Origin: Methylophaga sp. OBS3
Lineage (GTDB): Bacteria > Pseudomonadota > Gammaproteobacteria > Nitrosococcales > Methylophagaceae
Reading direction: 5' to 3'
Length of the DNA: 64,000 nucleotides
NCBI RefSeq assembly: GCF_026319325.1
Contig: NZ_JAPDMU010000002.1
Location: forward strand, 310,001-374,000
Shown here: piece by piece, positions 19,056-36,010 of the stretch
Numbering within the stretch: position 1 is the first letter of the stretch
Layout: every line of letters begins with the position of its first letter
Translations under genes and position numbers: made by a program
Notes under the pieces: model-generated
The model's input: only the letters and a program-made list of their open reading frames with translations
The model's database searches: none
Told to the model about the DNA's origin: nothing

Positions 19056-21173
19056 ATGAATCAATCTGCCATCACAAGACAGCTTTATTGTGTGCCGGCC
19101 ATTTTATCTCTGTTTATGGTCACACCTGTGCTCGCCGAAGAAACAACCGACAGCAGTGTCGAGTTACCAACGGTATCTGTTACTTCTCAAAATGCCAATG
19201 AATTAGGCTATATCGAGCTGGAAAAAGAACCAAAGGTTGGTAAGTTGGCAGTGCCTACTCAAGACCAGCCGTTTTCGGTCTCTATCGTGGACCCTGAGTT
19301 TATGAAAGACACCGGTGCCAAAACGATTCAAGATGCGTTGCTTTATACGCCTGGTGTTTATGCGGGTAACTTTGGTCTGGATACACGTATTGATGGTGCC
19401 AGTGTGCGTGGCATAAATGCTGGCCGATATCGGGACGGTCTTCGTGAAGTTTATGGCTCCTATAACAGTGTCCGTACCAATATCTATGCGTTGGAAAGCC
19501 TTGAAGTCCTGAAAGGTCCATCTTCCATGCTGTATGGCCAAGGCGATCTGGGTGGCTTGATTAATAGCGTGTCAAAACTACCAAAAGCAGAAAAAGGTGG
19601 TGAGATCTGGGGACAATACGGTTCATTCAATCGTAAACAAATTGCGTTTGATGTGACCGGCCCAATTGATGACGATGAGCAGTTTTTATATCGCATTGTC
19701 GGTCTGCAAAGAGACAGTGATACCCAAGTCGATCATGTTGAAGATGATGGTTACATGATTTCACCATCGTTCACTTGGAATATCAGCGATAAAACGCGTT
19801 TATCACTGTTGTTTAATCGCCAAGAAAACAAAGGGCAAATCTCTGCCCAGTTCTTACCCCAAGACGGTACTTTAGACCGAGCTAGCCAAGGTTACATTGG
19901 CTCAGAAACCTTTGTCGGTGAACCGGGCTGGGATAAATATGACCGTGAAAAAACAGAAGTAACGGTATTTTTTGATCATCAGTTTGCCGATAACTGGACA
20001 TTCTCAACGACAGCCCGTTATACCGATTCTAGCTCTGAAACGCGTGAACACTGGGTTGATATTCCTTCAAACCCAAGTGCAACTAATGGCCTGGTGAATC
20101 GTACTATTTTTATGGCAGATGCTGAGACGCAAATCTTTAACATCGACGCTCGGGTAAACGGTGTCTTTGATCTAGGCGCTACTCGCCATAATTTGGTTGT
20201 GGGTATTGATCGCCAAGATGCCAAGTGGGAACAAGACAATTACTTCAGTGGCCGGAGCTTAGGCGGCACGATTAATGTGTTTGATCCGCAATACGGTAAT
20301 TTGCAGGATCAGGTTTTGAATCCACAAGATCGCCCTGATAATGAAATCAAACAAACCGGTGTTTATGTTGCCGATCATATTGAGATTGGCAAAGTGGTGT
20401 TATCTGCTGGTTTACGTCATGACTGGGCCGAAAACCGGACTTTAGCGTTAACCGGGCCTGATACCGTCAGTGATGAAGAAGAAACGACAGGTCGTATTGG
20501 TTTGATGTATCGCTTTGATAATGGTTTGTCGCCTTATGTCAGCTATGCCGAAGCCTTCAGCATGAACCTTGGTAATGATGGTACAGCGGCAGCCAATACC
20601 CTCAAACCAACAACGGGCGATCAAGAAGAAGTCGGTATCAAGTATTTATCACCAGATAAAAGCTTAGCGATTACGGTGGCGTACTTTGATATTACCCAAG
20701 AAAATCGTATTAGCGATGGTGCAACACCAGGTGGTGTTGAGCAGATTGGTGCCGTCGTTGATGGTTGGGAATTACAAATCAACAAACGATGGGATAACTT
20801 CGAAACACAATTGGGTTATACCGATTTGAATGCGAAGAATGACAGCACGGGTGAGCGTTTGCCTTATGTTGCTGAGCAAATCGCAACATGGTGGAACAAG
20901 TTATATCTAGGTAATAACTGGCGTGTTGGTGCTGGTATTCGTTATATCGGTGACAATGTCGGTTCAGATTATGGCGCTGGTGCCGGTCCAAAAATTCCTT
21001 CAGAAACCTTATATGACGCAATGTTAGGTTACAGCATTGATCAGTGGGATTTCACACTGGATGCAAAAAACTTAACGGATGAAGAATTCATCTCATGGTG
21101 TCGTGGTGATGGTTTCGACTGTGGTTATGGTGAACGTCGTAACGTAACGGCCAACGTGCGCTATAGCTTTTAA
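19056..21173 (+). CDS. TonB-dependent siderophore receptor, FhuA-like
   Basis: A 705-residue outer-membrane receptor. It has a signal peptide (cleavage after VLA, residue 27), a TonB-box-like stretch (LPTVSVTS, about 38-45), a plug domain (about 65-190, with DALLYTPGVYAG and LEVLKGPSSMLYGQ) and a 22-strand-type barrel ending in aromatic YSF. Close to the C-terminus it has two cysteines (SWCRGDGFDCGYGERR). E. coli FhuA has a similar disulphide pair there, which suggests a hydroxamate ligand such as ferrichrome. The substrate is inference. It has its own promoter, a possible Fur site and a double terminator, and appears monocistronic. Confidence 0.88.
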   Translation: MNQSAITRQLYCVPAILSLFMVTPVLAEETTDSSVELPTVSVTSQNANELGYIELEKEPKVGKLAVPTQDQPFSVSIVDPEFMKDTGAKTIQDALLYTPGVYAGNFGLDTRIDGASVRGINAGRYRDGLREVYGSYNSVRTNIYALESLEVLKGPSSMLYGQGDLGGLINSVSKLPKAEKGGEIWGQYGSFNRKQIAFDVTGPIDDDEQFLYRIVGLQRDSDTQVDHVEDDGYMISPSFTWNISDKTRLSLLFNRQENKGQISAQFLPQDGTLDRASQGYIGSETFVGEPGWDKYDREKTEVTVFFDHQFADNWTFSTTARYTDSSSETREHWVDIPSNPSATNGLVNRTIFMADAETQIFNIDARVNGVFDLGATRHNLVVGIDRQDAKWEQDNYFSGRSLGGTINVFDPQYGNLQDQVLNPQDRPDNEIKQTGVYVADHIEIGKVVLSAGLRHDWAENRTLALTGPDTVSDEEETTGRIGLMYRFDNGLSPYVSYAEAFSMNLGNDGTAAANTLKPTTGDQEEVGIKYLSPDKSLAITVAYFDITQENRISDGATPGGVEQIGAVVDGWELQINKRWDNFETQLGYTDLNAKNDSTGERLPYVAEQIATWWNKLYLGNNWRVGAGIRYIGDNVGSDYGAGAGPKIPSETLYDAMLGYSIDQWDFTLDAKNLTDEEFISWCRGDGFDCGYGERRNVTANVRYSF

Positions 21174-25944: not shown

Positions 25945-26097
25945 GTCGCCACGATAAAGATTGAAAACGAAATTGTGCCTTTAATGGGGTTTGAGGTGTC
26001 TAATTTCAAGGCAATTCAGTTTTTTCCTGAGTTGAAGCGGGGGATTGGTGTGCTAAAGTTTGCCAACTTTTCACGATTTTTCAGGGATTTTTTCGCC

Positions 26098-28194
26098 ATG
26101 CTTAAAGTTAAAAAACTGCCTTTGCTGATTGCATTGGCAGCGGTGAACACGCCATATGCCGTATTTGCCGAGGAAGCAGAGTCGGCTGCATCGCTTGATG
26201 AGCTAGTGGTAACGGGTACGCGCAGCGAGTCACCTCTTTTGGAGGTCGCAGGAAACACAGGCCGTATATCAGAAGAAGAGATTGATTTGGTTCGTCCTGA
26301 CCATGTCAATCAGATTGTTAATCGTATTCCGGGCGTCAATGTTCAGCGCGGTAATGGGCAAGAGCATTTAACATCTATCCGTTCCCCAGTCTTGTCTGGC
26401 GGTGCGGGAGCGGGCTCTTTCTTGTATTTGGAAGATGGTATTCCGCTACGTGCAGCAGGCTTTGCAAACGTAAACGGTTTGTTTGAAGCTAATTACGAAC
26501 AAGCTGGTGGTGTTGAAGTGGTACGTGGTCCTGGTAGCGCTTTCTATGGTTCAAATGCTGTGCATGGTTTGATTAACTTCCTGACTCGCGCACCATCATT
26601 GGATCTTGAAAGAGAAATAGATGTGTCTGTTGGGCCCCATGATTTATATAAATTAAAAGGCACTATCAGTGACACAGAGGGCCGTCATGGCTATCGTTTG
26701 AGTGTTAATGGGACAACTGACGGTGGGTATGCGGAAGATGGTGGCTATGATCAGCAAAAGGTTACTTTCCGCCATGACTACTATGGTGACCAAGACAGCT
26801 TTAAAACTATTTTTAGTGCCACTAATTTAAATCAAAATACGCCGGGCTATATTGTTGGATTTAAAGCGTATGAGGATGAAAGACTCTCACGCAGTAATCC
26901 GAACCGTGATCGCGGAATAAGAGCCTATCGTGACGCACAATCATACCGCTTATCTACGGAATGGGAACGACAGTTAGATGATAATTCAACATTTCGTCTG
27001 ACCCCATATATCCGGCATACGGACATGGATTTCTTGATGCACTTTTTACCAGGCCAGCCAACTGAGAAAAATAGCCATAGCAGTGTCGGCCTATTATCTG
27101 CGCTTACATACGACTTAAATGGCGGTCATAAGGTTATTTTTGGTACTGACTTTGAATATACCGAGGGTGAGCTTTCTGAAGTACAGGATCAAGAGACAAA
27201 TCCAGGTCCTGGTGTTCCTCAGGGCGTGCATTATGATTATGAAGTGGATGCCACCGTTATTGCTCCTTATATCCACAGTGAATGGCAAGTCTTAGAGAAA
27301 ACGCGATTGGTTGCTGGTCTTCGTTACGAATACACCAAATATGATTACAACAACCAAACTACTGATGGCGCCATTTCGGTTGGTGCTGATGGTGTAGGAC
27401 CTAATGGTGGTGGTGAATTTGATCGTTACTTCCGACCTGCTGATGGTAAAGATACATTTAGCAACCTCAGTCCCAAGTTAGGCTTAGTTCAAGAATTAAC
27501 AGAAGACACTAGTGCATTTATCAACTACGCCCGTGGCAATCGTGCACCGCAAACAACGGATTTGTACCGCATACAAAACAATGCTGGGGCTAGTGCTGAT
27601 TCAGAAACCATCGATAGTATTGAAATTGGTATTCGAAAATTAGGTGAGGGTTTGCAATATGAGGTGGCAGCATATCATATGAAGAAGCGCGACTATTTCT
27701 TTACCGACACAAACGATATCAATGTTAATGATGGCAAAACTAATCATACAGGCCTGGAAATTGGTGCTTTCTATCCGTTTTCAGCGCAGTTTGATATTGC
27801 TGCGAATATGACTTTTGCAAAGCATGAATATGATTTTGATCGTGCAGATACGGATATTGAAAACGGCAATTATTTGGTTACCGCTCCTAAACGTACGGGC
27901 AATATTCGTCTTGGTTGGAATGCAACTTCTCAAACGCGCGCAGAGCTTGAATGGGTGCACATGAGTGAGTATTACCTAAATGATGCTAACACTGAGAAGT
28001 ATGAAGGCCATGATGTTTTCAACTTGTATGTTTCTCATCAAGTTAACAGTAACTTGAAACTGTATGGTCAGTTACGAAACGTATTTAATACCGAATATGC
28101 GGAGCGTGCTGACTTTGGTGGATTCCCTTTAAACTATCGTTATTTCGTTGGTGAAAAACGCTATCTACATTTTGGGGCAAGCTACGCTTTTTAG
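26098..28194 (+). CDS. TonB-dependent receptor, ligand unknown
   Basis: A 698-residue outer-membrane receptor with a signal peptide (cleavage after VFA, residue 24), a good TonB box DELVVTG (34-40), a plug domain (about 45-165, with IVNRIPGVNVQRGNG and VEVVRGPGSAFYGSNAVHG) and a barrel ending SYAF. The frame extends upstream to 25975, but the signal peptide identifies ATG 26098. I see no Fur site before it, unlike the other two receptors, and the plug is of the general CirA/colicin-type family. Iron is therefore not the only possible ligand; other metal complexes, cobamides or organic substrates remain open. Confidence 0.87.
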   Translation: MLKVKKLPLLIALAAVNTPYAVFAEEAESAASLDELVVTGTRSESPLLEVAGNTGRISEEEIDLVRPDHVNQIVNRIPGVNVQRGNGQEHLTSIRSPVLSGGAGAGSFLYLEDGIPLRAAGFANVNGLFEANYEQAGGVEVVRGPGSAFYGSNAVHGLINFLTRAPSLDLEREIDVSVGPHDLYKLKGTISDTEGRHGYRLSVNGTTDGGYAEDGGYDQQKVTFRHDYYGDQDSFKTIFSATNLNQNTPGYIVGFKAYEDERLSRSNPNRDRGIRAYRDAQSYRLSTEWERQLDDNSTFRLTPYIRHTDMDFLMHFLPGQPTEKNSHSSVGLLSALTYDLNGGHKVIFGTDFEYTEGELSEVQDQETNPGPGVPQGVHYDYEVDATVIAPYIHSEWQVLEKTRLVAGLRYEYTKYDYNNQTTDGAISVGADGVGPNGGGEFDRYFRPADGKDTFSNLSPKLGLVQELTEDTSAFINYARGNRAPQTTDLYRIQNNAGASADSETIDSIEIGIRKLGEGLQYEVAAYHMKKRDYFFTDTNDINVNDGKTNHTGLEIGAFYPFSAQFDIAANMTFAKHEYDFDRADTDIENGNYLVTAPKRTGNIRLGWNATSQTRAELEWVHMSEYYLNDANTEKYEGHDVFNLYVSHQVNSNLKLYGQLRNVFNTEYAERADFGGFPLNYRYFVGEKRYLHFGASYAF

Positions 28195-28249: not shown

Positions 28250-29734
28250 TTATTGGCGGAGCGTTTTACGTTGCTCGAGACGGTTTAAAAACTCACGCAT
28301 AATATCGTCATAGAGTGCCAAACCTAAGTAGGCATCCTCGACACCGCTATCAATACTTGGGTTATCGTTGACCTCAATCAAGACAACGCGAGACCCACTC
28401 TGCTTGATATCGATACCATACAAGCCATTTCCAACCAATTTCGCCGCTTTTGTAGCGATTTTAAGTACTTTTTCGGGTACTTCTGAAATAGGGATGGCGC
28501 TGGATTTACCAGAAGCCGTACCTTTTTTCGTGTTGTGGTTGTATATCTGCCAGTGGCCTTTACTCATAAAGTATTGGCAGGCATATAGCGGCTTGTTGTT
28601 AAAAACACCGATTCGCCAGTCGTAATCGGTAAACATAAATTCCTGTAACAATATGATCGCTGACTGTTGGAAAAACTCAGCCGCGTTTAGACGCAGTTCT
28701 TCAGCGTTATTTACTTTGATAACGCCCTTTGAAAATGCGCCATCAGGAATTTTCATTACTAATGGAAAGGCCGCGGTTTCACACATTTTCTCAAGCCCTG
28801 CCTTGTCATTACGATACAACAGGTGCGACTCAGGCATTGGCAGGTTGTGCTTCTCCAGCAGTTCTTTCAGATAAATCTTATTAGTACAGCGAATGATCGA
28901 CGTCGGATCATCAATAACCACTAACCCTTCACTCTCCGCACGACGAGCAAACTTATAGGTATGGTTATGAATCGCGGTGGTTTCACGAATAAACAGCGCA
29001 TCATATTCAGCTAAACGAATGTAGTCTCGCGGTGTAATTAGTTCAACATCAATACCTAGACGTTTACCACTGGCAATAAAACGTTTTAATGCCGTCATAT
29101 CACTCGGCGGCATTTTTTCTTCAGGATTATGCAAAATCGCCATATCGTAGCGAAATTGACGACGTTTTGATGGTTTTCGCCACAATTTGTGACTAAATGC
29201 GTCTAAAGCATTGGCAAATAAATCTTGCTCGCTTTCAGTGAGCGTATCAATCGCACCGGCACCGACACGGTTGATCAGCCAGTGACCTTTGTTAGTAAAG
29301 TCAATTTCCAGAATAGGGCAGGGGAATTGCTCATAAATCTGCCGAGCAAGCTTTTGCAGTGCTTTAAATTCACATTGGCCAAAAAAGACTTTCAAACGAA
29401 ACTTGGCTTCGCTTTGCTTGCTACTTGCCATGATAACTTTATCGAGCTTATCGCTGAGGTCTGTGAGATCAAACGCGTAAAGACTTTTCCGTGAAAGATC
29501 ATTGATGGTGCGTAAGCTTGGGATCACGCGATGGTCACGAGCTTCTGCAACCATTGAACAGTAGTAGCCAGGGCTCAAGTAATCAAGGCTATGACAGAGG
29601 TTAATAATTTGCGCACGTTCATTCAGGCTGTGCGTCGACGTTTGCAAATAATCGTCTACAGCAATGACTTGTGCGCTGGGGAAGTATGGGGCCCAGTCGT
29701 CGATATTTTCTACTATTATCAGATGGTTACTCAT
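28250..29734 (-). CDS. RLAN-domain RimK-type ATP-grasp ligase
   Basis: A 494-residue protein in two parts. Residues 1 to about 190 match the RLAN (RimK-like ATP-grasp N-terminal) type, with YLSPGYYCSMVAEARDHRVIPS near 53. The rest is a RimK-class ATP-grasp fold with the glycine-poor ATP loop FSKGVIK, the adenine-binding stretch LLQEFM, and the metal-binding end LIEVNDNPSIDSGVED. Such enzymes form amide or peptide bonds by an acyl-phosphate intermediate, often adding amino acids to a protein tail or peptide; the substrate here is unknown. AAGGAG lies 14 bases before the ATG. It is divergent from a DUF2817 peptidase and a GNAT-C39 gene, and these are likely partners. Confidence 0.88.
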   Translation of the reverse strand: MSNHLIIVENIDDWAPYFPSAQVIAVDDYLQTSTHSLNERAQIINLCHSLDYLSPGYYCSMVAEARDHRVIPSLRTINDLSRKSLYAFDLTDLSDKLDKVIMASSKQSEAKFRLKVFFGQCEFKALQKLARQIYEQFPCPILEIDFTNKGHWLINRVGAGAIDTLTESEQDLFANALDAFSHKLWRKPSKRRQFRYDMAILHNPEEKMPPSDMTALKRFIASGKRLGIDVELITPRDYIRLAEYDALFIRETTAIHNHTYKFARRAESEGLVVIDDPTSIIRCTNKIYLKELLEKHNLPMPESHLLYRNDKAGLEKMCETAAFPLVMKIPDGAFSKGVIKVNNAEELRLNAAEFFQQSAIILLQEFMFTDYDWRIGVFNNKPLYACQYFMSKGHWQIYNHNTKKGTASGKSSAIPISEVPEKVLKIATKAAKLVGNGLYGIDIKQSGSRVVLIEVNDNPSIDSGVEDAYLGLALYDDIMREFLNRLEQRKTLRQ

Positions 29735-29900
29735 AGATTTGTTGGCGTCTCCTTGGCGACTTCACCGTTCTATTTGTGCATCTTAAAGTCATTGTGTCAT
29801 GGTTGTGCTAAAAATTTTTGCCAGACTTGTGATTTACTGGTCAAAATCACCAAAAACACCTATTCTTCGCCAAAATTTTTGCAGTGGGAGTGTCGATGCT

Positions 29901-30971
29901 ATGTATGCAGAAGCTGTTTTGAGCGTCTTTTCACAACGTTATGCTGGTGCACGGGATAAGTTTGTTTCATCTGTTGAAACCAGCTCGATAGTTGAGCGAG
30001 TGAACAATATTGCTCACCCGCTTAAAGGCCCCAAAAACGAAAAGTTATTCTGCGATATCGCTTGGGCCGGTAATCCTAAAGCTAAAAACCTACTGGTCTT
30101 GGTGTCTGGATTGCACGGCGTGGAAGGCGGTGTCGGCTCTGCCATTCAATCTGACTTTATCAGTCGCCATCGTCGCTTACCCCCTGATATATGTGTTGTA
30201 TTAGTGCATGCGCTCAACCCATGGGGATTTGCTTGGGCGAGTCGAAATGATCACGAAGGTGTTGATGTAAACCGCAACTTTGTCGACTTTAGTGGCAAAT
30301 TACCGGACTCTGCTGAGGCATTAAAAATCTGGCAGGAATTAAGTCAAAGTGGTGCCGATATGGATAAAGTCGGTGCTCAACGCGAGTTATTTGATGCCCT
30401 GAGTCAGGGACAATATCAACAGTCAGATACGCTTTACTACGGTGGTGATAAAGCCAGTTGGTCACGGGAAGTTATCGAGCAGTTAGCCGCGCAAATTAAA
30501 CCTGAAAAACGTGAGCAGATTGTTGTCATAGACATTCATAGCGGCCTTGGCCCTTATGGTTATGGTGAGCTGATTTGTGATCACCCGCATGACAGTAAAG
30601 CCACACAAACGGCCCGAGATTTATTTGGTGCCACCGTCACTGAGCCTGCGATGGGTACTTCAAGCTCAGGGGTTAAACATGGTCTACATGACTATTTCTG
30701 GCACGCACAAGGTGAGCATGTTTGTTTCCTGACACTAGAGTTTGGTAGTTTTGGGAACAGTGAAATGTTGCGGGTTCTTTACGCTGATTATCTATTACAG
30801 CAGTCTGGCAAAATTGATTGGTCGGATCAGCAAACCTTGGATACAAAACATGGCATCCAAGATTTCTTCTGCCCCGATCAAACCCAGTGGCAGGAACTAG
30901 TGTTATTCCGTGGTCGTCAGGTAATTGAAATGGCATTGGAAGGGCTCAGCGGCCAAAATGGCAGTAACTGA
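29901..30971 (+). CDS. M14-like DUF2817 metallopeptidase
   Basis: A 356-residue protein of the DUF2817 group related to M14 zinc carboxypeptidases and deacylases. The zinc ligands are probably His72 and Glu75 in SGLHGVEGGVGS and His213 in DIHSGLG. The carboxylate-binding DVNRNF is at 122-127, and the likely catalytic Glu is in LTLEFGSFG near 285. There is no signal peptide, so it acts in the cytoplasm. The ATG at 29901 has GGGAG 10 bases upstream; the longer frame from 29799 is not supported. Its 3' end overlaps the next gene by 14 bp, so the two are translationally coupled. Confidence 0.85.
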   Translation: MYAEAVLSVFSQRYAGARDKFVSSVETSSIVERVNNIAHPLKGPKNEKLFCDIAWAGNPKAKNLLVLVSGLHGVEGGVGSAIQSDFISRHRRLPPDICVVLVHALNPWGFAWASRNDHEGVDVNRNFVDFSGKLPDSAEALKIWQELSQSGADMDKVGAQRELFDALSQGQYQQSDTLYYGGDKASWSREVIEQLAAQIKPEKREQIVVIDIHSGLGPYGYGELICDHPHDSKATQTARDLFGATVTEPAMGTSSSGVKHGLHDYFWHAQGEHVCFLTLEFGSFGNSEMLRVLYADYLLQQSGKIDWSDQQTLDTKHGIQDFFCPDQTQWQELVLFRGRQVIEMALEGLSGQNGSN

Positions 30972-32076
30972 TTCGGCAACAATCACGATTCGCACGGCAA
31001 CATTACAAGATGTTGATGTATTGCTGGCGTTGGAAAAAACGTGTTTTGATACCGATAGGCTGTCTCGGCGTAGTTTCAAATGGATGATCAACAAAGCTAA
31101 TGCGTTGTTATTGCTGGCGGAAAAAGACCAGCAACTCGCCGGTTATGTTTTGGTGTTGTATTCACGGGGCACGTCACTAGGGCGGATTTATTCGTTAGCC
31201 GTTTCTCCGGAACATCGTAAACAAGGCATTGCCAACACGCTGATGGCTGCGGCTGAAAAAGCAGCTTTGGCTGCCGGTCGAAGTTTTATCCGTCTAGAAG
31301 TTCGACCAGATAACCATAACGCCATTCGGCTTTATGAAAATTTAGGCTATAAGCAGTTTGATGTCGTCAGTGACTTTTATGAAGATCACACTGATGCTAT
31401 GCGTATGATGAAGGTGCTGCAACCTGAGCCACATACTCTGCAGAACCAAGTTGTACATTATTCGCAAAGCACCGACTTTACTTGTGGCCCCGCCAGTTTA
31501 ATGATGGCGATGAAAACCCTGAATCCTGAAATGCCGCCGCTAGATCGTATTACAGAGTTACAAATTTGGCGGGAAGCGACCACTATTTTTATGACGTCAG
31601 GTCATGGTGGCTGTAGTGCCCAAGGCTTGGCACTATCGGCTTGGCGGCGTGGGTTTGATACTACGTTAATCACCAATAGCGACGAAGTACCATTTATCAA
31701 TGGCGTGCGTAGTGATGATAAAAAGCAGGTGATTGAGTGTGTGCATCAAGATTTTGTGCAGCAAATTGATGCCTCAAATATCAATCAGCAAGTGCAGTCA
31801 ATGGATGTGAACTTGTTACGTCAGCATTTGGATGCTGGGGCATTAGTTGTGGTTTTGATAAGCTCTTATCGGCTTAATCAAAATAAGTCACCACATTGGG
31901 TTGTGCTCGCTTCAATATCCGATACCTTTGTGTATTTTCATGATCCAGATATTGATTGGGATGATGACAAAACGCTTACCGATAGTCTCTATATTCCGGT
32001 GACCCATAGAGAATTTAACCGTTTGTTGGGTTACGGTAAGCCACGTTATCAAGCGGCGGTTGTACTCAAAAATTGA
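30958..32076 (+). CDS. GNAT acetyltransferase fused to a C39-like cysteine peptidase
   Basis: A 372-residue fusion. Residues 8-155 are a RimI-like GNAT domain with the acetyl-CoA motif SPEHRKQGIA (83-92) and NAIRLYENLGY (121-131). Residues 165-370 are a C39/papain-like domain with Cys176 (DFTCGPASL), His313 (SPHWVVL) and Asp329 (HDPD), so the peptidase triad looks intact. The start is ATG 30958, inside the end of the previous gene. GNAT-C39 proteins are known from annotation but not functionally defined. Side by side with an ATP-grasp ligase and an M14-like peptidase, it suggests a peptide or protein-tail modification and its trimming. Confidence 0.88.
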   Translation: MAVTDSATITIRTATLQDVDVLLALEKTCFDTDRLSRRSFKWMINKANALLLLAEKDQQLAGYVLVLYSRGTSLGRIYSLAVSPEHRKQGIANTLMAAAEKAALAAGRSFIRLEVRPDNHNAIRLYENLGYKQFDVVSDFYEDHTDAMRMMKVLQPEPHTLQNQVVHYSQSTDFTCGPASLMMAMKTLNPEMPPLDRITELQIWREATTIFMTSGHGGCSAQGLALSAWRRGFDTTLITNSDEVPFINGVRSDDKKQVIECVHQDFVQQIDASNINQQVQSMDVNLLRQHLDAGALVVVLISSYRLNQNKSPHWVVLASISDTFVYFHDPDIDWDDDKTLTDSLYIPVTHREFNRLLGYGKPRYQAAVVLKN

Positions 32077-32137
32077 ACTTGCTTAGCTGATCACAGTCAG
32101 AGCTTTGTATTAAGCCTTTGCAGTGAAACGTTGAACT

Positions 32138-32590
32138 ATGCTGAATGCCATTAAATCTTTGTTAAACCCAGAAACTGACGATAACGCCACCTTGGCGAAA
32201 CAAGTACAAAACTCACCAAAGTTAGCTGCCGCCGCCCTGATGGTTGAAGTAATGACGGCGGATTATGAGCAAGATATCGCCGAAGTAGAAACACTCAAAG
32301 GCTTATTAAAAAAACAGTTTCAATTAACAGATGACGCTGCTGAGGCGCTGTTTCACGATGCCGTAAAAGCCCATCAAGATGCGACCGATTATTTTGCTTT
32401 TACCAGCGAAATCAACCGGCAATACAGCATGGCTGAAAAAATTCAGCTTATTGAGGCTTTGTGGCAAATGGCGGCAGCGGATGATGCTATTCAAGCTGTT
32501 GAACAACATGTAATTCGACGTATAGCGAGTCTGTTACACGTAGCCCATAACGACTTCATTGCCGCAAAACTCAAAGTTAGTGACAGTTAA
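32138..32590 (+). CDS. TerB-family protein
   Basis: A 150-residue all-helical cytoplasmic protein of the TerB/DjlA-N type. Its characteristic acidic helices are VMTADYEQDIAEVETLKGLL and ALWQMAAADDAIQAVEQHV, which in TerB domains bind divalent metal. It lies 61 bases after the GNAT-C39 gene and probably belongs to the same transcript. TerB-like domains are found in tellurite and phage-resistance loci and in membrane-stress systems, but many single-domain copies have no known role. Its stop codon overlaps that of the convergent gene by 3-4 bases. Confidence 0.8.
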   Translation: MLNAIKSLLNPETDDNATLAKQVQNSPKLAAAALMVEVMTADYEQDIAEVETLKGLLKKQFQLTDDAAEALFHDAVKAHQDATDYFAFTSEINRQYSMAEKIQLIEALWQMAAADDAIQAVEQHVIRRIASLLHVAHNDFIAAKLKVSDS

Positions 32591-33639
32591 TTTGTTACGT
32601 TAAAACGTTTTAAGCCAACCAATTGACCAGAGTCCGTTACCACTTTAACCTGCCAACGACCGGCGGATTGTTCTGGGAAATGACTTTTATAGCTAAAGGC
32701 GCGATAGCCTAATTCACGACCACCATTAATTTCCAATGTAATCCGGTCGACTTGTTTGCCGTTATGAACCCATACATGGTGGATTTTTTCTTGTAGTCCA
32801 CGCGGTGCTTTGATGGCTGTCCAAGCATACAGACCACTTTGTTTAAGCTGTGTTTGGCTAATACTATTAATCGCTTGACCATGTTGAAGCTGTTGGCGGT
32901 CAACTTCTTGCGACAGGCTCATTTCAGTTAATCGTAATGATGCTGGTGGTATCCAACCTCTTGCCTGCCACAACGCACCGGCTAATACACTTAGCATCAG
33001 TAATAATGCCGGCAAACGCCACCACCGACGATATTGAAACACCCTAACTAAGCTCGGCAAACTCAACGCAATGACGGTTAATAGTGCCCAAGCGATGCTT
33101 TGCGTGGTGGTCATTTGCAATATCACCGGCAGGCTAACTAACATGACTGAAAACAACGCAAAGGCATGAAACAGTAAAAACAGCTCACGACGTTTGGCGA
33201 GTTTTTGGTAGTAGACAGGGTCAATTACCGAGACAAGCGCACAGATAATTAACAGAGCAGTGAATACTGACTGACCGTGATCCCAAGTTGTGACAGCCAA
33301 GAAAAATGGCAGCGCGAAAAATAGGCTTTCCTGATGCACAAGCTGCGTTAAGTAATGCATAACAGCCGGAGGAAAGCTTAGATGGAAATAACGTAGTAAA
33401 AGATCTCTTAAGACTTTTTCAAGGATCAGAAATAGCCAACTAAGCAGTAAAACTATCGTGATGCCTTGGGCAATAGAAGTGCTACGTTCGACAAAAAAGA
33501 AGCTAGCTGCGCCCGAAATAAAACCAAAAATAGCAATTAAGCCTGGATAGCGCTGGGCCAAGGCGATCAACTTTATTAACAGTGATTTAACTGTTTGCAA
33601 TGTACTTACAGATGAAATGGCTGGTGATGAATTTGGCAT
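32587..33639 (-). CDS. DUF5924/DUF2914 inner-membrane protein
   Basis: A 350-residue membrane protein with about seven hydrophobic helices (residues 35-250) and a C-terminal periplasmic domain (about 255-350) matching the DUF2914 pattern: HHVWVHNGKQVDRI, EINGGRELGYRAFS, SAGRWQVKV and SGQLVGLKRFNV. Function is unknown in all relatives I can recall. It is convergent with the TerB-type gene, with overlapping stop codons and no terminator between them. Confidence 0.8.
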   Translation of the reverse strand: MPNSSPAISSVSTLQTVKSLLIKLIALAQRYPGLIAIFGFISGAASFFFVERSTSIAQGITIVLLLSWLFLILEKVLRDLLLRYFHLSFPPAVMHYLTQLVHQESLFFALPFFLAVTTWDHGQSVFTALLIICALVSVIDPVYYQKLAKRRELFLLFHAFALFSVMLVSLPVILQMTTTQSIAWALLTVIALSLPSLVRVFQYRRWWRLPALLLMLSVLAGALWQARGWIPPASLRLTEMSLSQEVDRQQLQHGQAINSISQTQLKQSGLYAWTAIKAPRGLQEKIHHVWVHNGKQVDRITLEINGGRELGYRAFSYKSHFPEQSAGRWQVKVVTDSGQLVGLKRFNVTN

Positions 33640-33856: not shown

Positions 33857-36010
33857 GTGCGTTTTTCTAGAACAATTATATATTTATCACTCAGTCTCGC
33901 TTGGACATCAGCAATGTCTGCAGAGCAAAACACTGAGTCAGATCCTACCGTCGATTTACCCAAAATGGGCGTATCTACTGATTGGTTAGGTTCATCCGAA
34001 AAGAGTGGTGACTACACTCGGCCACAAATGAATACGGCAACACGTTTAGGCCTGTCGATTCGGGAAACGCCACAATCTATTTCAGTTATTTCGCGTCAAG
34101 TTATTGATGATTTTAAGCTTGAGACCATAACGGACGTGGTAAACACGGCAACAGGGGTTTCTTCAAGAGCTTTGGATAGTTCTCGAGGCAGTTTCTCAGC
34201 TCGTGGCTTTGACATTACCAACCTGCAAATTGATGGTGTGCCAACGGCCTGGGAAGGTGGCTACTCGGCAGGCGAGACGATGACCGATATGGCCATTTAT
34301 GACCGAGTTGAAATTGTTCGTGGTGCAACAGGTTTGATTACTGGTGCGGGTGATCCGTCAGCGGCTATTAACTTAGTACGTAAACGTGCAGACAGTGATG
34401 AGTTTGTCGGTCATGCCACTGTTACCGCAGGTTCGTGGGATCATTATCAAGGTACTGTTGATGTCTCAACGCCGCTTAATGAGGCCGGTACGGTACGTGG
34501 TCGATTAGTGGGAAGTTATCGAGAGAGTGGTTCGTTCATTGATAATTTAGAAGATGAACGCCAAGTATTTTATGGCACCTTGGGGATTGATTTAACCGAG
34601 CGTACATTGCTGAATGTCGGTGTGAGTTACCAAGATCATAATCCGACCGGTTCTTCTTGGGGCGGTCTACCAACCTGGTATAGCGATGGTTCTCGTACAA
34701 ACTGGAGTCGGTCAAAAAATATTGGTACTGACTGGACCAAGTGGGGCTCGGAAGTCACCAATTATTTTGCCAATATTGAGCATCAATTTGATTCTGGCGC
34801 GTCTATTTATGCTGCCTACAGTCAAACGATTAATGATGGTGATATGAAGCTGCTTTATCTATCAGGTTATCCTGATCGTGAGACTGGTCTGGGACTGTCG
34901 CCTAGCTTGAGTCGTTATGACAACGAACGTAAACAGGAAAACGTCGATATTTACGGCAATATCCCGTTCCAATTATTTGGTCGAGATCATGAAGTCACTT
35001 TGGGCTTGATGCACAGTGAACAAGATTTTACTGCTAATCGTCACTATGCCCAGAATACGCCAGTATTAGGTAACTTTAATGAGTGGGATGGCAGTTACCC
35101 CGAGCCAATTTGGGGTGAAAGTGTTCCCTATGTCACTAAAGATACCAAGCAAACAGGTTATTACGCAGTATCGCGTTTATCTTTGAGCGATCCCATGACA
35201 TTAATCTTAGGTGCACGAATTACCGATTGGGAAGTGAATGGCATGGAGTGGGATGGCAGTTTCTACGAGTTTAACTATGACCAAGAGTTCACGCCCTATG
35301 CCGGTTTAATCTACGACTTTAACGAGGTTTATTCTGGTTATGTCAGCTATACCGACATTTTTAAGCCGCAGAGCTTACAAGATCGTAATGGTGATTACCT
35401 TGACCCTGTTGAAGGTAAAAACTACGAAGCCGGTATTAAAGCCGCTTATCTTGATGGCCGTTTAAATGCGACGTTATCGGTGTTCAGAATCGAACAAGAT
35501 AATCTTGGTCAAATTGATCCAGGTTTTATCGTTCCTGGTTCTATTAATCAGCAAGCCTATACACCAGCTGAGGGAGCGACAAGCAAAGGCTTTGAAGCAG
35601 AAGTTGCTGGTGCATTAACCGATAGATGGAATGTTTTATTAGGTTGGTCACAATTCCGTGCCGAAGATGCTGAAGGGGATGCTGTGAATACACAATTCCC
35701 TCGCCGTACGCTTAATTTATATACCACCTATGATGTTAACAATGCTTTAACTGTGGGCGGTGGCGTTAAGTGGGAAAGCAGTAACTACACTATCGCGACA
35801 AATCCATTAGGCAATAGTGAAAAGCTCAAGCAAGACAGCTATGCATTGGTCAATCTAATGGCGCGTTATCAGTTCACACCATCAGTACAAGGGCAGGTGA
35901 ATGTGAATAACCTGTTTGATGAGAAGTACTACAGTCAGATTGGTTTCTATAGCCAATATGCTTACGGTACGCCAAGAAGTGTGACAGCAAGTCTTCGTTA
36001 TGACTTTTAG
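33857..36010 (+). CDS. TonB-dependent siderophore receptor, FhuE/FpvA-like
   Basis: A 717-residue outer-membrane receptor with a signal peptide (cleavage near MSA/EQN, residue 22). The plug domain contains SIRETPQSISVISRQ (about 67-81), DVVNTATGVS and the strongly conserved YDRVEIVRGATGLITGAG (about 150-167), and the barrel ends LRYDF. The plug and the strand sequence GDPSAAINLVRKR resemble FhuE and FpvA receptors for hydroxamate or mixed siderophores. The start is GTG 33857 with TGGAGT upstream. It is the first gene of the Fur-marked iron island and is closed by a strong terminator. Confidence 0.88.
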   Translation: MRFSRTIIYLSLSLAWTSAMSAEQNTESDPTVDLPKMGVSTDWLGSSEKSGDYTRPQMNTATRLGLSIRETPQSISVISRQVIDDFKLETITDVVNTATGVSSRALDSSRGSFSARGFDITNLQIDGVPTAWEGGYSAGETMTDMAIYDRVEIVRGATGLITGAGDPSAAINLVRKRADSDEFVGHATVTAGSWDHYQGTVDVSTPLNEAGTVRGRLVGSYRESGSFIDNLEDERQVFYGTLGIDLTERTLLNVGVSYQDHNPTGSSWGGLPTWYSDGSRTNWSRSKNIGTDWTKWGSEVTNYFANIEHQFDSGASIYAAYSQTINDGDMKLLYLSGYPDRETGLGLSPSLSRYDNERKQENVDIYGNIPFQLFGRDHEVTLGLMHSEQDFTANRHYAQNTPVLGNFNEWDGSYPEPIWGESVPYVTKDTKQTGYYAVSRLSLSDPMTLILGARITDWEVNGMEWDGSFYEFNYDQEFTPYAGLIYDFNEVYSGYVSYTDIFKPQSLQDRNGDYLDPVEGKNYEAGIKAAYLDGRLNATLSVFRIEQDNLGQIDPGFIVPGSINQQAYTPAEGATSKGFEAEVAGALTDRWNVLLGWSQFRAEDAEGDAVNTQFPRRTLNLYTTYDVNNALTVGGGVKWESSNYTIATNPLGNSEKLKQDSYALVNLMARYQFTPSVQGQVNVNNLFDEKYYSQIGFYSQYAYGTPRSVTASLRYDF

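Follow-up and report, generated by a model that had tools for sequence, protein, structure and literature searches.

In this study, we examined a gene cluster in a window of 64,000 nucleotides from Methylophaga sp. OBS3, a methanol-consuming marine bacterium (the window denotes this whole stretch, positions 310,001–374,000 of its contig; host assembly, 2.30 Mb), in which an ATP-grasp amide ligase combining an RLAN domain with a RimK fold stands next to a DUF2817 hydrolase, a fusion of a GNAT acetyltransferase to a C39-like peptidase (DUF3335; hereafter GNAT-C39), and a TerB-domain gene (table 1). The four adjacent open reading frames named in a preliminary description of this DNA were all recovered at their coordinates, and Pfam confirms their families: the ligase scores 174.9 bits against RLAN (cut-off 25) and 42.7 bits against RimK (cut-off 21), the hydrolase 259.3 bits against DUF2817, and GNAT-C39, a single open reading frame, 278.7 bits against DUF3335 and 71.2 bits against Acetyltransf_1. 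The first ATG of the DUF2817 gene lies at 29901, within a longer mechanical open reading frame (29799–30971), and GNAT-C39 starts at the ATG at 30958, which confirms the 14-bp overlap described previously (30958–30971). Overlaps of 8–26 nt recur in 21/21 Methylophaga loci with intact starts and are thus not due to chance; translational coupling of the two genes is probable. The ligase gene, 1.2 kb away from GNAT-C39, diverges from DUF2817, an arrangement also found in Methylophaga relatives. The layout suggests promoters in the region between them; a promoter and terminator scan of the locus gave nothing clearly exceeding shuffles. The nearest relatives of the ligase (75–92% identical) come nearly all from Methylophaga genomes.

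Table 1. Features of the Methylophaga sp. OBS3 locus (window positions) and of related loci (locus:positions)
Feature	Position	Strand	Basis
RLAN + RimK-fold ATP-grasp amide ligase, 494 aa	28250..29734	-	Pfam, fold, invariant residues
Divergent intergenic region ligase/DUF2817, 166 bp, presumed promoter region	29735..29900	.	Layout common to Methylophaga relatives
DUF2817 M14-like zinc hydrolase, 356 aa	29901..30971	+	Pfam, motif, M14 profile matches, clade membership
DUF2817/GNAT-C39 frame overlap, 14 nt, probable translational coupling	30958..30971	+	Overlap kept across Methylophaga
GNAT (RimI/Ard1-like)-C39-like papain-fold DUF3335 fusion, 372 aa	30958..32076	+	Pfam, GNAT fold, triad
TerB-domain gene, judged outside the system	32138..32590	+	Pfam TerB, 109.3 bits
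DUF155/RMND1-type genes near the locus	L092:6239-7033, L110:6963-7766, L118:10088-10879, L155, L158, L159, L161, L167		
Second-class RLAN operons	L095:7888-12002, L105, L113, L116 and eight more loci		Profile annotation

Comparative genomics supports a functional pair formed by the RLAN ligase and GNAT-C39. Whole genomes were searched with Pfam in two partly overlapping samples with one genome per species, 276 gammaproteobacterial genomes (class sample) and 299 Pseudomonadota genomes (phylum sample), a DUF3335 match of over 200 bits being counted as strong; locus neighbourhoods were annotated with profiles built from those same loci, and gene trees were read on their own. RLAN is present in 63/276 and 60/299 genomes and strong DUF3335 in 44/276 and 51/299; nearly all the DUF3335 genomes also carry RLAN (43/44 and 50/51), nearly always at an adjacent position, with hypergeometric p-values of ~1e-33 and ~1e-45 that are rough guides, uncorrected for relatedness, since congeneric genomes inflate the counts. 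Of the 62 class-sample RLAN loci compared, a full-length GNAT-C39 lies within 6 kb in 40, on the same strand in 33 and across a gap of <250 nt in 36; the rest comprise seven with a lone GNAT, 12 with a second partner set (see below), and three with none. A further 44 RLAN loci divide into 31 with GNAT-C39, 12 with a lone GNAT, and one with none. The majority of ligase/GNAT-C39 pairs are co-directional, and their spacing, mostly 3–150 nt, leaves little room for a precursor peptide gene of the kind expected in a graspetide or other RiPP cluster, the search for which was limited to these gaps. Distances among RLAN proteins correlate with those among GNAT-C39 proteins (r = 0.66; null maximum, 0.19), a figure that still includes shared species history. 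Chance proximity of genes from unrelated pathways would be in keeping with two results given below, the presence of DUF2817 elsewhere in most genomes having it and the bystander status of TerB; yet this explanation is contradicted, for the ligase and GNAT-C39, by their co-occurrence and adjacency in differing layouts, and the locus-linked DUF2817 copies form one clade, so that we find it hardly credible.

The pairing is itself an already known prediction: Iyer et al. reportedly derived gene groups of RLAN-ATP-grasp, GNAT, and C39-peptidase proteins from the comparative genomics of amidoligases in 2009. Like such groups, the window locus places a PF14401 plus RimK ligase beside a GNAT-C39 fusion (PF11814); it differs by the inserted DUF2817 gene, which overlaps GNAT-C39, and by a ligase that is divergent, not co-directional. 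DUF3335 is frequently fused to GNAT (PMC10318531). Other arrangements were also seen. In Azospirillum brasilense Sp7, GNAT-C39 immediately precedes the ligase. An Alcanivoracaceae genome has a GNAT-carbon-nitrogen hydrolase fusion adjoining its RLAN gene (L025:11587-13149), and another such fusion adjoins a second-class RLAN locus (L105:9845-11398). On the Pseudomonas aeruginosa plasmid pZYPA1927 (L138), the RLAN ligase occupies a chromosome-like P. aeruginosa context (ggt, a glutamate/aspartate ABC transporter, and pagP), which probably corresponds to PA1338–PA1346, and GNAT-C39 was not found within 8 kb of it. Judged by gene order, this ligase would be PA1345, listed as a "hypothetical ATP-binding protein" with a predicted upstream Cpx site, which is suggestive only (PMC12802237).

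Taken as a whole family, DUF2817 does occur independently, and by the refuting condition set in the preliminary description it would drop out. Counting strong matches and comparing their coordinates with those of RLAN and DUF3335 matches, we found it away from the locus in 7/11 genomes having it in the class sample and in 29/44 in the phylum sample. Yet the unlinked copies belong to other clades: in a tree of 60 proteins, all 20 locus-linked copies fall into one clade (support 0.92), with a single unlinked member, beside a threonine dehydratase in genome G334 (L212), where no RLAN gene was found. The linked copies span five families, f1 (Methylophaga), f81, f151, f181, and f182, the last two outside Gammaproteobacteria. 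Their layouts vary: in Methylophaga and f81, DUF2817 and the ligase diverge; in f151 (L092), DUF2817 is part of one co-directional ligase-DUF2817-GNAT-C39 run; and in f181 and f182 it is convergent with the ligase or downstream of it. Since they form one clade over five families in such differing layouts, the linked copies support the view of a dedicated subfamily, an optional part of the module. Enzymes of the Zn-exopeptidase type recur at other RLAN loci: a PF00246 M14 zinc carboxypeptidase (563–574 aa), perhaps a stand-in for DUF2817, is divergent from GNAT-C39 in five genomes (L068, L070, L071, L078, and L088), in L125, where the ligase is accompanied by a lone GNAT, an M14/AstE/DUF2817-like protein stands next to the ligase, and the second RLAN class carries an N-formylglutamate amidohydrolase (FGase). 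We count this recurrence in favor of the model proposed below.

A TerB gene is present in 60/65 GNAT-C39 genomes, but only in two, one of them Methylophaga, is it found 6 kb or less from the locus; among Methylophaga-type loci it is near in 16/24, directly adjacent in 12 and displaced by 2.4–3.2 kb in four. Given a proximity that is essentially confined to Methylophaga, we reject TerB as a fourth component and regard it, from gene order, as a lineage-specific neighbour; a tellurite-resistance (ter) system is rejected as well, TerB not being conserved with the other genes. Thus, of the link between four genes drawn in the preliminary description, the ligase/GNAT-C39 part stands, DUF2817 belongs where it is present (one clade, 8–26 nt overlaps), and TerB drops out. 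In the window, a DUF5924/DUF2914 membrane protein gene (32587–33639) and the TerB gene share 4 nt in a tail-to-tail overlap, and three TonB-dependent receptors flank or neighbour the locus (19056–21173, 25975–28194, and 33857–36010); in L066, from a relative, GNAT-C39 and TerB are separated by a receptor-family gene. DUF155/RMND1, on the evidence of gene neighbourhoods, appears to be a frequent partner of RLAN/GNAT-C39 loci: one gene is found in 38/77 RLAN genomes, and in 19/38, spread over nine families, it is no more than 6 kb away from the locus; a search of the Methylophaga host genome (G000) gave no match. RMND1 supports mitochondrial translation. A ribosome- or nascent-chain-linked system might be envisaged in which the ligase and GNAT-C39, often with DUF155/RMND1, act on a protein that belongs to the ribosome or associates with it, DUF2817 serving as eraser; we consider this quite unlikely.

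The second partner set defines another class of RLAN operon, seen at 12 class-sample loci and composed of a stand-alone C39 protein, the RLAN ligase, a GCS2 carboxylate-amine ligase, and FGase. In a tree of 109 sequences the 12 RLAN proteins form one clade (support 1.0), with the GNAT-C39 class outside, and hhalign shows homology between the DUF3335 C39 domain and the stand-alone C39 protein (94%, E 1.3e-7). Because the C39 proteins are homologous, an RLAN ligase plus C39 constitutes the common core, to which GNAT in one class and GCS2 with FGase in the other are class-specific additions. The second class therefore shares with the window locus a homologous ligase and a homologous C39, but has neither GNAT fusion nor DUF2817, and two ligases with FGase instead. 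The GCS2 and FGase relatives that have been characterised take free or N-acylated amino acids as substrates.

The active sites are intact throughout: all the catalytic residues named in the preliminary description are present and, in alignments of each family, conserved. The ATP-grasp residues D442, E454, and N456 of the ligase are identical in 109/109 RLAN proteins; in the C39 triad, C176 is kept in 80/81 and H313 in 81/81 proteins, and D329 is Asp in 70 and Glu in 11; GNAT E114 is retained in 79/81. In DUF2817, H72, E75, and H213 are invariant in 20/20 diverse members, as are, beyond the residues originally listed, E280 and the NRN motif (N124-R125-N126). This is the M14 pattern (HxxE...NRNF...H...E), and the DUF2817 profile matches the M14 peptidases REP34 (E 9e-4) and MpaA (E 1.6e-3), in each case confined to the region of the zinc site. 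The model of the ligase (mean pLDDT 79) has RimK, LysX, and ArgX as nearest folds (Z 24–26 over ~270 residues; 7qys, 7qyr, and 4iwx at Z 25–26 and rmsd 2.4–2.5, with ~270 residues aligned). Fold matches of the whole model cover residues 192–494 only, and the RLAN N-domain profile found no match among PDB sequences up to E = 1; no new fold is claimed for it. The ligase falls below the NCBIfam cut-offs for RimK, the S6 glutamate ligase: it scores 93.4 vs 143.4 for TIGR00768 and 37.8 vs 331 for PRK10446. In the GNAT-C39 model (pLDDT 84), the GNAT half is nearest to the RimI/Ard1/Naa10 N-terminal acetyltransferases (Z ~21–22) and carries RimI/Ard1-type active-site motifs (LEVRxxNxxAIxLYE and YxDxxDA). 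Despite this likeness in fold and motifs, it is fused to C39, falls below the RimI cut-off (81.9 vs 86.4 bits), and coexists with a true RimI that the genome encodes at another site (135.5 bits); its identity as the RimI of the cell was therefore rejected.

RimK-type enzymes work on C-termini and RimI/Ard1-type enzymes on alpha-amines; because the ligase fold is RimK-like and the GNAT fold RimI/Ard1-like, a model of C-end extension with N-end capping can be drawn. We tentatively propose, at a probability of roughly 0.4, a cytoplasmic module for peptide modification, the enzymes of which would share a single substrate. From the genes present, their intact active sites, their folds, and their conserved linkage we infer every catalytic step, its direction, and its substrate, as follows. 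The RLAN/RimK-fold ligase would activate a carboxylate at the expense of ATP and extend an acceptor peptide on its C-terminal side by an amino acid that is probably acidic; the C39-like half would cleave the peptide, leaving a free alpha-amine that the RimI/Ard1-like half of the same polypeptide would then acetylate (cut and cap); and DUF2817, as an M14-type zinc enzyme, would trim the C-terminal side, reversing or limiting the ligase (extend and trim). The "write, cap and erase" scheme of the preliminary description is thus plausible in this refined form.

Several observations weigh against this proposal. A lone GNAT without C39 occurs at 19 RLAN loci, so that peptide cutting cannot be obligatory; 29/40 class-sample GNAT-C39 loci have no tracked extra partner and most lack DUF2817, which implies that trimming is dispensable or performed by other enzymes. 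Moreover, DUF2817, FGase, and the PF00246 group presumably share one exopeptidase fold, but hhalign gave no significant match of DUF2817 to FGase or to the PF00246 M14 group. The literature searched yielded no activity, substrate, or phenotype for the module, and no function for DUF2817 or DUF3335.

Alternatively, the ligase may lengthen one specific cellular protein at its C-terminus, creating a tail that GNAT-C39 and DUF2817 would edit or remove. The nearest folds of the ligase, RimK, LysX, and ArgX, are protein-modifying (RimK modifies RpsF; LysX and ArgX modify LysW), and the GNAT half is of the RimI/Naa10 protein N-terminal acetyltransferase type. RimK and RimB further provide an experimental precedent for a writer-eraser pairing (PMC11957791; PMC12239564): RimB strips RpsF of the glutamates that RimK puts on it, and stimulates poly-glutamate synthesis as well (PMC11957791). 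The window locus resembles that pair in having a RimK-fold ligase (Z ~25) and a hydrolase that might undo its product, as RimB does (PMC11957791); yet its ligase carries RLAN as an additional domain and scores under the RimK-family cut-offs, its hydrolases are of cysteine and zinc types instead of retropepsin-like, and a GNAT is added. Against a protein target, no conserved gene for one was noticed adjoining the locus in the classified loci, the host encodes a separate RimI as well as another RimK-like ligase, and the sister class is paired with the small-molecule families GCS2 and FGase. Solely because of this last pairing, we take a short peptide as the more likely acceptor in our proposed module; the protein tail, possible though not probable, stays a serious rival.

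The same FGase could also point to an N-acylated dipeptide or amino-acid metabolite, such as a compatible solute resembling N-acetylglutaminylglutamine amide (NAGGN): GNAT would acetylate an amino acid, the ligase would join a second one, and DUF2817 would act as an AstE/aspartoacylase-like recycling deacylase. GNAT and ATP-grasp do cooperate in NAGGN synthesis (TIGR03103; weak match here), L125 carries an M14/AstE-type protein, and the M14 clan includes the AstE/AspA deacylases. However, the GNAT domain reaches 31.7 bits vs the NAGGN synthetase cut-off of 569 bits (TIGR03103) and is closest to protein N-terminal acetyltransferases, no amidotransferase occurs among the annotated neighbours of the window locus, and the papain-fold partner is left without explanation; we consider this reading unlikely. 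Two further identities were rejected. PADLOC gave no match to the ligase, DUF2817, or GNAT-C39 that would indicate a defence system, and for a phage origin there was only one weak GNAT match in a single phage record, all PHROGs matches being to families of a generic kind (ligase, carboxypeptidase, and acetyltransferase).

Measured against the 2009 prediction, what appears new in the present evidence is the locus-specific DUF2817 clade, the split of the ligases into two classes, the association with DUF155, and the finding that TerB is no part of the module. About one-fifth of the sampled Pseudomonadota genomes carry an RLAN ligase, yet no known product was found for these enzymes. Overall, by telling the true parts of the module from bystanders and by defining two ligase classes and a locus-specific hydrolase, our findings make the question of its substrate testable.

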